Assembly: GCA_025358055.1 (NCBI GenBank)
Contig: JANYKV010000063.1
Coordinates: 75,569-139,568, forward strand
Source of the DNA: Gemmatimonadota bacterium
GTDB taxonomy: Bacteria; Gemmatimonadota; Gemmatimonadetes; Gemmatimonadales; GWC2-71-9
DNA: 64,000 nucleotides
Reading direction: 5' to 3'
The translations under genes were made by a program, and so were the position numbers. The notes under the pieces were generated by a model that was given only the letters and a program-made list of their open reading frames with translations, was not told the origin of the DNA and searched no databases. Each line of letters starts with the position of its first letter. Position 1 is the first letter of the stretch. Positions 18,524-25,410 of the stretch are shown here, piece by piece.

Positions 18524-18689
18524 GGGACCACCTTCAACACCGGAAGGAGAAGGAAACCTGCCATCTGGCTCACGAATTAAGGCGCTGGAGCCGAGGGAGT
18601 GTAATTCATGGGAGCAGGATTGCCAGATCACTGAGCGCCACAGTGATGAGTTGTATATACAACTACTAAAGGACTCTCCGGAAATTATT

Positions 18690-18724: not shown

Positions 18725-18836
18725 AGGGCCTGCGAATGAATCCACTTCTGACACTTCCTACCGGCAATTTCCGTATTGAAGCAACGTTTCGGATTGAACC
18801 TGCATCCAATGGTGATGCCCCCTACTTGAGGTCTCT

Positions 18837-20069
18837 ATGCGCGTCCGAACGACCCTTCTCGTCATCGCGGGATTAGTCTGCATCACTGGAGCGGCGGTTT
18901 CGAAGCGAATCTCGACCATTCGACCAGCATCGGTTAAGGAGGTCAGGAACGGTAAATGGACCGGTGAGGTTCGACGTTCTAGGTCTGACGGTTCTTCCCG
19001 TCTCGGGTTGCAAGTGGACCTCCGGGAGTCGGCCGGCTCGTGGAACCAGAACTACGGATTTGAGATCCCAGCCGAAGAGTTGACGGGGCTCAAGAATCTC
19101 TCGCGCGACTATGCAGCCACGGACGTTCACTTCGAACTCGCCCGCGAAGCGGGCCAGGTCAGCTTCGCGGGGTCGTTCCGCGATGGCCAGGGCGAGGGGG
19201 AATATGTGTTCACGCCGAGCCCGAGGTTCGTCGCCGAGCTACGTAAGATGGGCTATCAGGAACCGACTCGGGATGCTCTTCTCGCCTTGACGGTGCACGA
19301 TGTGAAAGCCGCTTGGGCCAAGGGTCTCGCGGATGCCGGAGTGGGAGCCAAGGACGTCGATGACCTGATCAGCATGCGCATCCACGACGTCTCCCCCGAG
19401 TTCGTCCGCGAGCTGCATGATCTGGGATACGACCATGTGGCTCCGTCCGACCTGCTCGCGATGCGAATCCACGATGTGACCCCGGACTACATCCGGTCCA
19501 TGCAGCAGGGTAGCAAACGGCAACCCACCGTCGAAGACTTGATCGCCATGAAGATCCACGATGTGGAACCGGGCCTCCGCGAAGAGCTCGCGGAAGATGG
19601 GCAGGAAGATGTCGACTCGGACGACCTGGTCTCCATGAGGATCCACGGCATCACGCCGGAGTTCATTCGCGACATGACGAGGCTCGGAATCGAAGCGGCG
19701 GATGTCGATGGCCTCTTGTCGCTCAAGATCCACGGCATTACGTCGGACTTCGTTCGGAACCTCGGCCACTTGGGCTACAACCACGTCGATCCCGACGATC
19801 TCGTCTCCATGAAGATCCACGGAATCACCCCGGAGTACATCCGAGATATCGTTGACGCAGGCTTGCGGTCGGTACCGATCGACGATTTAGTGTCGTTGCG
19901 GATTCACGGCGTGGATGGCGCCTTCATCCGCGCAATGCGGGATGCGGGGCGGGCGGTTGATGATGCGGACGACCTGATCGAGCTCAAGATCGGAGGCGAC
20001 CGGCATCACAATGGTGATATGGACGACGACGATGATGAGGACAGCGACGATTCGGACGATCCCAGCTGA
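18837..20069 (+). CDS. secreted protein with nine 29-residue tandem repeats and an acidic tail
   Basis: A 410-residue protein of unknown function. A signal peptide covers about residues 1-22 (LLVIAGLVCITGAAVS). Residues 25-130 form a beta-rich domain (GKWTGEVRRSRSD, LGLQVDLRES, GSFRDGQGEGEYVF). From residue 131 there are eight complete 29-residue repeats and a ninth partial one, with consensus F-[IV]-R-x-[LM]-x-x-x-G-x(7)-DDL-[VIL]-[SA]-[ML]-[RK]-IH-[GD]-[IV]-[TS]-P-[ED]. The end is a run of Asp/Glu (DMDDDDDEDSDDSDD). Similar repeats are attached to M56/BlaR1-type sensors in related phyla; here the repeat region is free-standing and exported. TGAGG 6 bases before the ATG is a reasonable Shine-Dalgarno. 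Confidence 0.85.
   Translation: MRVRTTLLVIAGLVCITGAAVSKRISTIRPASVKEVRNGKWTGEVRRSRSDGSSRLGLQVDLRESAGSWNQNYGFEIPAEELTGLKNLSRDYAATDVHFELAREAGQVSFAGSFRDGQGEGEYVFTPSPRFVAELRKMGYQEPTRDALLALTVHDVKAAWAKGLADAGVGAKDVDDLISMRIHDVSPEFVRELHDLGYDHVAPSDLLAMRIHDVTPDYIRSMQQGSKRQPTVEDLIAMKIHDVEPGLREELAEDGQEDVDSDDLVSMRIHGITPEFIRDMTRLGIEAADVDGLLSLKIHGITSDFVRNLGHLGYNHVDPDDLVSMKIHGITPEYIRDIVDAGLRSVPIDDLVSLRIHGVDGAFIRAMRDAGRAVDDADDLIELKIGGDRHHNGDMDDDDDEDSDDSDDPS
19227..19997 (+). repeat. 87-bp coding tandem repeat (9 units, last partial)
   Basis: Each unit encodes 29 residues starting at a Phe, Tyr, Trp or Leu codon: units begin at 19227, 19314, 19401, 19488, 19575, 19662, 19749, 19836 and 19923, with no length variation. 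The most conserved core is the stretch encoding DDLVSM[RK]IHGITP. Units have diverged in DNA sequence, so the array is old and not a recent slippage product. Confidence 0.9.
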
Positions 20070-20078
20070 AGCATTCTG

Positions 20079-20120
20079 ACGAAACCTATGCGGGGGAAAG
20101 GCAACTTTCCCCCGTTTCGT
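20079..20120. terminator. strong rho-independent terminator between convergent genes
   Basis: A perfect 10-bp stem CGGGGGAAAG (20091-20100), loop GCAA, CTTTCCCCCG (20105-20114), with an outer arm ACGAAAC (20079-20085) that pairs with GTTTCGT (20114-20120). The 3' side continues TTTCGTTTA. It lies 10 bases after the repeat-protein stop and 8 bases before the stop of the convergent aminotransferase gene. The AAAG/CTTT ends let it act in both directions. Confidence 0.8.
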
Positions 20121-24456: not shown

Positions 24457-25410
24457 TTACAGCGCCACACGTTCCAGTTCGTTGATCCGGGTCACGTTGA
24501 GGTGCACGATCCCATCATCCCGCGGCGGCTCGATGATGTTCACGAATCGCGCGCCCATAATGATCTCCTGCCCGGTGTACGAGACTCGGGCATGCACGGT
24601 CTGAGAAAAGGCTTCCTCAGTGGCCGTCAGCAAGACGAAGAGTTCCGCCTCCGCGCCGTGCAATTCCGCCTCGGATACGCCGAAGATCGGACTCTGTTCA
24701 TCGATCGGGTGCACCACCGTCCACGTGAGCGCAAGGAACATGACGTCCCGGCGCTCCAGCTCGAGTTCGAAGAACTGACGATCCTGTTCGCCGGGTTTCT
24801 TCCACGAGAAATACACGCGGGCAGTCACCTGAAACAACTCGTTCCGGCGGATGTTGGTCAACCGGAACATCAAGGCTGTCTTGCCTCGATAAGGGCCAAT
24901 GACCGCGCGTTGACTGAACACGACCCCCGCGGTGGGTCGAGACACCCGCGCGAACACGATCCCGGCGATCATGGAGAACCCAACTAGCCCGACGAAGGAC
25001 TCGATCGTGACCAGGAGGTTCGCTCCGAGGCTGGCCGGACTAACGTTGCCGTACCCTATCGTCGCGAGGGTGTGAACGCTGAAGAAGAAGACTTCCAAGA
25101 AGCGACCTGTCGGATCATCGGCGGCCGCGCCGGTCAGGGCTCCGGACCCGAGCCAGAAATAGCCCAACGCGAAAGCGCAGTTGACCAGCACGTAGGCCCC
25201 GACGGTCATCAATAGGAATCGGGGCCACGTCATTGTGAGAAGAGAATGATAGAGAGAGAGGGAGCGGAAGAACGGCAACCCTTCTCGTCGCGCGTTGAAC
25301 GATCCGTCGCGATTCAACAAGCGCGCGCGACTTTCCCGCGCGAGAACGGAGCCGAAGCCGAGATCGCGGCTTTCGTTTGTGGTCTGGGACACCGAACCCC
25401 GCGCCGTCAT
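24457..25410 (-). CDS. inward-rectifier potassium channel (KirBac-like)
   Basis: A 317-residue ion channel with two membrane helices (about residues 62-85 and 130-155) around a K+ selectivity filter HTLATIGYG (near residue 115-120), preceded by an amphipathic slide helix (YHSLLTMTWPRFLLM). The C-terminal 160 residues form the immunoglobulin-like Kir domain (ALMFRLTNIRRNELFQVTARVYFSW, later HGAEAELFVLL, ARVSYTGQEII). This is the complete KirBac layout. It should form a tetramer in the inner membrane and set potassium conductance. Its ATG overlaps the stop of the DinB gene (ATGA), so the two are translationally coupled, an odd pairing. Confidence 0.93.
   Translation of the reverse strand: MTARGSVSQTTNESRDLGFGSVLARESRARLLNRDGSFNARREGLPFFRSLSLYHSLLTMTWPRFLLMTVGAYVLVNCAFALGYFWLGSGALTGAAADDPTGRFLEVFFFSVHTLATIGYGNVSPASLGANLLVTIESFVGLVGFSMIAGIVFARVSRPTAGVVFSQRAVIGPYRGKTALMFRLTNIRRNELFQVTARVYFSWKKPGEQDRQFFELELERRDVMFLALTWTVVHPIDEQSPIFGVSEAELHGAEAELFVLLTATEEAFSQTVHARVSYTGQEIIMGARFVNIIEPPRDDGIVHLNVTRINELERVAL

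Follow-up and report, generated by a model that had tools for sequence, protein, structure and literature searches.

A putative BlaR1-type circuit that pairs a solenoid sensor with a secreted sister protein, and an orphan member of the family in a Gemmatimonadota genome

Receptors of the BlaR1 type are known chiefly for sensing beta-lactams. In the BlaI/BlaR1 and MecI/MecR1 systems of Staphylococcus aureus and Bacillus licheniformis, a BlaI-family repressor is paired with an M56 membrane protease, and the same pair occurs in an operon of Acidobacteriota described here. The two systems are also alike in that the protease carries a C-terminal domain after its last membrane helix, in the palindromic operator-like sites at the operon's own promoter, and in having one exported product. 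In BlaR1 this C-terminal domain is extracellular (PMC9834060). The Acidobacteriota operon differs, however, in that it has neither a penicillin-binding sensor domain nor a beta-lactamase; a two-helix solenoid is the predicted sensor, and the exported product joins a beta domain to a solenoid of the same kind. A second comparison is with M56 proteases that have HEAT-repeat C-termini, which likewise combine M56 with an alpha-solenoid and have a BlaI gene directly upstream, although their HEAT repeats match Pfam strongly and the 29-residue units of the present family do not match HEAT. Literature searches returned no relevant report, for these phyla, of a BlaR1 relative that bears repeats and lacks the penicillin-binding domain.

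Here we analyse a gene within a 64,000-nucleotide stretch of a Gemmatimonadota genome (the window), which is an orphan member of this family.

An exported beta-domain and repeat protein

The open reading frame is intact, with 410 codons plus stop, and the features of the gene and its surroundings are as follows.

18649–18664, no strand assigned: palindrome AGTTGTATATACAACT, 16 bp, perfect and AT-rich, between the divergent prolyl oligopeptidase and repeat genes (sequence)
18828–18831, + strand: GAGG, Shine-Dalgarno-like, 5 nt ahead of the ATG (sequence)
18837–20069, + strand: whole gene, exported beta-domain and 29-residue repeat protein, 410 aa (open reading frame, homologues)
18837–18911, + strand: N-terminal hydrophobic signal sequence, aa 1–25 (sequence; model helix 2–26; hydrophobic N-termini of relatives)
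18945–19217, + strand: six-stranded beta domain, aa 37–127 (model; relatives at the N-terminus of secreted alpha/beta hydrolases)
19209–19295, + strand: unit 1, degenerate, aa 125–153 (sequence, model)
19296–19991, + strand: units 2–9, eight in-register 29-residue two-helix units, aa 154–385 (sequence, model)
20016–20066, + strand: Asp/Glu-rich tail, aa 394–410 (mostly pLDDT below 50; not conserved in relatives)
20090–20115, + strand: intrinsic-terminator-like stem-loop, 11 pairs with a T-rich tail (suggests a single-gene transcript)

The signal sequence was called from the sequence and the predicted N-terminal helix, without a dedicated predictor. The gene is flanked by a divergent prolyl oligopeptidase gene on one side and a convergent aminotransferase gene on the other, and since the stem-loop follows it, the repeat gene is most likely transcribed alone. 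The palindrome AGTTGTATATACAACT is a possible local operator. It was considered as a shared operator or regulon motif and dropped, as no second copy was found in the 4.4-Mb window genome even with two mismatches allowed; it also differs from the TACANNTGTA type that precedes this genome's own blaI in C39. Elsewhere in the window, a Kir-type (inward-rectifier) potassium channel gene lies at 24457–25410 on the − strand.

The sequence-only reading had described an exported protein of exact 29-residue repeats with an N-terminal beta domain and a helical-repeat array, and this description was borne out. Nine units are spaced by exactly 29 residues from aa 125 to 385, with the eight after the degenerate first in strict register, and identity within the array at an offset of 29 was 0.38, compared with a maximum of 0.16 in shuffled sequences (n = 10,000, offsets 20–40 scanned). 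AlphaFold2, given an alignment of 21 sequences, returned a model with mean pLDDT 85.9, in which six strands (aa 37–127) precede eighteen helices, each unit contributing two and most scoring over 90; confidence was low in the acidic tail and where the signal sequence ends. The array is therefore modelled with confidence as a two-helix alpha-solenoid. Mean pairwise identity between units was 38% for protein and 52% for DNA, and Tandem Repeats Finder did not report the array, which is explained by the divergence of the units at the DNA level and indicates that the array is old.

Other parts of that reading needed correction once relatives were compared. The 29-residue period, taken to be structurally constrained, is strict in the window protein, yet relatives mix periods of 28 and 29, hence the strictness is this protein's own property. 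The IHGITP core is looser than had been stated, and what recurs in the eight good units is the hairpin H-[DG]-[VI]. The tail of Asp and Glu is real, but it is private to the window protein and outside the family build, as Gemmatimonadota relatives have mostly basic tails or none, and those of Acidobacteriota stop at the last repeat. The window protein (pI 4.4) otherwise follows the family, whose members are mostly acidic, in being exported and in carrying the six-stranded beta domain followed by two-helix units whose hairpins read H-[GD]-[VI].

The view that the protein falls in no obvious known family stood. Neither Pfam nor NCBIfam contained a family for it, and a fold search of the PDB and viral models returned no natural protein matching the whole chain; the sole PDB match below E 0.001 was a designed nanocage (TM 0.24–0.29). 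As for a closed calycin barrel as the fold of the beta domain, lipocalins and streptavidin appeared in the whole-chain search only at E 0.1–0.9. For the array, there was no Pfam match and no natural PDB fold match to HEAT/ARM or another described solenoid. Pfam matches of relatives to LYTB, Glycos_trans_3N, SAM_GIDA_C and DUF732 were discarded as short summed fragments.

Distribution of the family and its BlaI–M56 operon

A first scan of a genome collection using the window protein alone returned no relatives. Sequence searches of 61 genomes from the same family and phylum detected proteins of the same build in seven, the window's own included, and a profile search of 395 Gemmatimonadota-like genomes of the phylum was positive in 41, about 25 of which had the same build; the remainder matched mainly the beta domain. 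When 84,980 species genomes were searched with an alignment, 23 loci emerged, mostly in Acidobacteriota. The beta domain is also common to secreted alpha/beta hydrolases (L039 and L040, profile E 1e-8 and 3e-8, profile positions 5–143), where it precedes a hydrolase domain, whereas in the window protein it precedes the solenoid. In a tree of beta domains, in which many inner branches were weak, the window copy grouped with other Gemmatimonadales, with copies of family f5, and with one copy from Acidobacteriota subdivision 6.

In Acidobacteriota loci with enough DNA, blaI was immediately followed by the gene for an M56 (BlaR1-type) protease that ends in an array of sister units, and that gene immediately by the secreted gene, the exception being L044 (subdivision 6), an orphan copy as in the window. 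Matches to the BlaI HMM and to Peptidase_M56 fall on adjacent genes in these operons. No penicillin-binding (transpeptidase-like) domain was matched by Pfam in their sensors, and the BlaR1/MecR1 NCBIfam models matched the protease part alone, far under cut-off. The secreted protein is the sole non-regulatory product of the operon. The sequence-only reading had called the protein free-standing; such a free-standing secreted protein is no exception, being in Acidobacteriota the regular third gene of these operons. The operon also occurs at L063, whose contig was binned as Candidatus Marinimicrobia; since the beta domain there clusters with those of Acidobacteriota, this may reflect transfer or mis-binning.

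Because the first loci had been fetched with the secreted protein, a reverse search was seeded with the sensor array. Among 121 genomes around the Acidobacteriota isolate KBS 96, arrays were present in 15, and in 12 of these the M56/array gene adjoined the secreted gene (in two of the 12, the sensor frame was cut by the fetched stretch or contig). Of the other three, two were split by contig ends and one had a single array. The pair of M56/array and secreted genes was also present in two Gemmatimonadota genomes (G199 and G353). A third (G178) encodes an M56 domain and, behind it in the same protein, two full beta+array modules, hence the module that is free in the window elsewhere forms the C-terminus of an M56 protease. 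Taken at the family level, the association of the secreted protein with BlaI/M56 circuits is well supported by these sequence comparisons.

The sensor and secreted arrays are of distinct types. A His precedes the hairpin Gly in 68 of 74 secreted units from Acidobacteriota and in 75 of 86 from Gemmatimonadota plus subdivision 6, while Gln occupies the hairpin position in 57 of 63 Acidobacteriota sensor units; the period is mostly 29 in secreted arrays and mostly 28 in sensor arrays. All eight good window units have the His, or secreted-type, hairpin. As this His recurs at the same place in each unit, metals are suggested as candidate ligands of the secreted array. The sensor's C-terminal array, too, was modelled with confidence as a solenoid; it lies behind a membrane helix and a disordered linker, and the protease part was modelled poorly.

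Upstream of blaI in the Acidobacteriota operons is a double palindrome, TACGAA-N4-TTCGTT-GACA-N-TACGAA-N4-TTCGTA, which overlaps the TTGACA promoter element in all 14 complete promoters with small variations. From its position and symmetry, BlaI is predicted to bind this sequence at its own promoter. An exact single site was present at the operon in each of six whole genomes, with only two elsewhere in them, the first within a glycosidase-like gene and the second away from any gene start. By exact match, a search in which weak sites are missed, BlaI would thus have one target, its own operon.

The orphan copy and its setting

The window gene is an orphan family member without a cognate sensor, as are most Gemmatimonadota copies. 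Unlike in BlaI/BlaR1, it has neither repressor nor protease alongside, no BlaI or M56 gene adjoining it, and the TACGAA operator is absent at the gene and in the window. The window genome is 93% complete and carries the array in this gene alone, with no array-bearing M56 sensor elsewhere. The co-occurrence with array-bearing M56/BlaR1 sensors raised by the earlier reading was found in the Acidobacteriota operons and in the gene pairs of G199 and G353, but not in the window genome. Two M56/BlaI pairs do occur there, of which one ends in HEAT repeats and the other in a plug-like end. The M56 protease of the former (C39, L071 2206–4401, − strand) bears a strong HEAT-repeat array at its C-terminus, and a BlaI gene with ACTACACATGTAAT in its upstream region precedes it; this is another BlaR1-type receptor with a solenoid in place of the penicillin-binding domain.

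Neighbouring genes of family copies vary in nearly every genome. Some orphans of families f5 and f6 lie near PadR and MacB/FtsX-permease genes, and one lies beside a histidine kinase. Beta+array genes at L078, L083, L084 and L088, from other families of the class, are near PadR regulators and MacB/FtsX-type permease genes, and at L034 (G353) a secreted array gene is directly followed by a His_kinase-family (LytS-like) histidine kinase and a response-regulator frame. At L038 (G189), a Ser/Thr kinase reads directly into a beta+array module, with no membrane helix by eye; this fusion was left out as evidence owing to its short contig, fragmented genome and incomplete kinase domain.

Possible roles of the secreted protein

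We consider it about an even chance (roughly 0.5) that the window protein is a ligand-binding solenoid of the envelope, either a detached copy of a BlaR1-type sensor or its partner, and probably feeds back on that sensor. It would be a periplasmic binding protein in which a small beta domain leads into an alpha-solenoid with nine two-helix units. In the complete operons, the sister-unit solenoid of the M56 protease would lie outside the cytoplasm and the BlaI repressor would occupy the double operator in the promoter of its own operon. The sensor and secreted solenoids may recognise the same ligand or each other, such that ligand bound by the sensor would lead to cleavage of BlaI and more secreted protein, which would then capture ligand or sensor and close the loop; we infer both the ligand and the direction of the secreted protein's effect. 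In the window organism, where the array-bearing sensor is missing, the protein would be an orphan binding protein or be read by another regulator. A bolder reading, which we put forward tentatively, is a self-contained loop in which a BlaR1-type protease has been freed from beta-lactam sensing, has a solenoid ectodomain, and has as its sole output a secreted copy of that ectodomain, a sensor mimic; orphans such as the window's would be detached mimics acting on other partners. Several observations run counter to the main reading: the window gene has no BlaI or M56 neighbour and no TACGAA operator, the two M56/BlaI pairs of its genome have HEAT repeats or a plug-like end in place of the array, most Gemmatimonadota copies are orphans that must act without an array sensor, and some copies lie beside PadR/MacB-FtsX or histidine-kinase genes.

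The set of PadR and MacB/FtsX-type permease genes is often linked to antimicrobial peptides, and its presence beside other copies favours a role for the secreted protein as an effector guarding the envelope by binding a toxic peptide, antibiotic or damaged polymer, with the sensor merely detecting the same thing. The protein's place as sole non-regulatory product, held by the beta-lactamase in bla operons, points the same way, but it has no enzyme or lytic motif and no known fold, and we regard this role as somewhat unlikely, while noting that it and the feedback model are compatible and can both be true. More doubtful is that orphan copies such as the window's are scaffolds, chaperones or inhibitors for secreted peptidases. 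This is suggested by the divergent prolyl oligopeptidase, by an M13 peptidase gene just upstream of the copy in L087, by a long secreted protein, tricorn-type protease-like by eye, following the copy in L089, and by the beta domain shared with alpha/beta hydrolase N-termini. Such neighbours differ in nearly every genome, however, and the prolyl oligopeptidase gene runs on the opposite strand, while the repeat gene has a terminator of its own.

A structural or adhesive surface repeat protein without a signalling role, with the Acidobacteriota operon linkage as a separate specialisation, would suit the dominance of orphans in Gemmatimonadota and a long acidic tail that could bind cations; it is improbable given that the same module forms the C-terminal domain of an M56 protease, that the tail is private to the window protein, and that the arrays are short. 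Least probable, and by our estimate very unlikely, is that the repeats are helix-hairpin-helix motifs binding nucleic acid outside the cell. The units resemble HHH_5 domains in their layout of helix, Gly-containing hairpin and helix, and one window unit matched HHH_5 weakly (E 0.013). This match, at 16.4 bits, is far under the Pfam gathering cut-off of 27 and occurred in one of 21 members, hence membership was dropped; unlike HHH_5, the units have one Gly only, with the second hairpin glycine replaced by Thr, Ser or Asp, and form an exported array that is acidic in most members.

The feedback reading remains our preferred one. On sequence evidence, the underlying circuit is of the BlaR1 type, with a solenoid as sensor in place of a penicillin-binding domain and with a secreted protein of sister repeats; the window gene is an orphan of this family. 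BlaI/M56 circuits of this kind, with an evident operator, are present in abundant soil phyla, having by exact match one target operon, the sole non-regulatory product of which is a secreted sister-repeat protein. What such receptors sense, and what the window orphan does, may now be tested.
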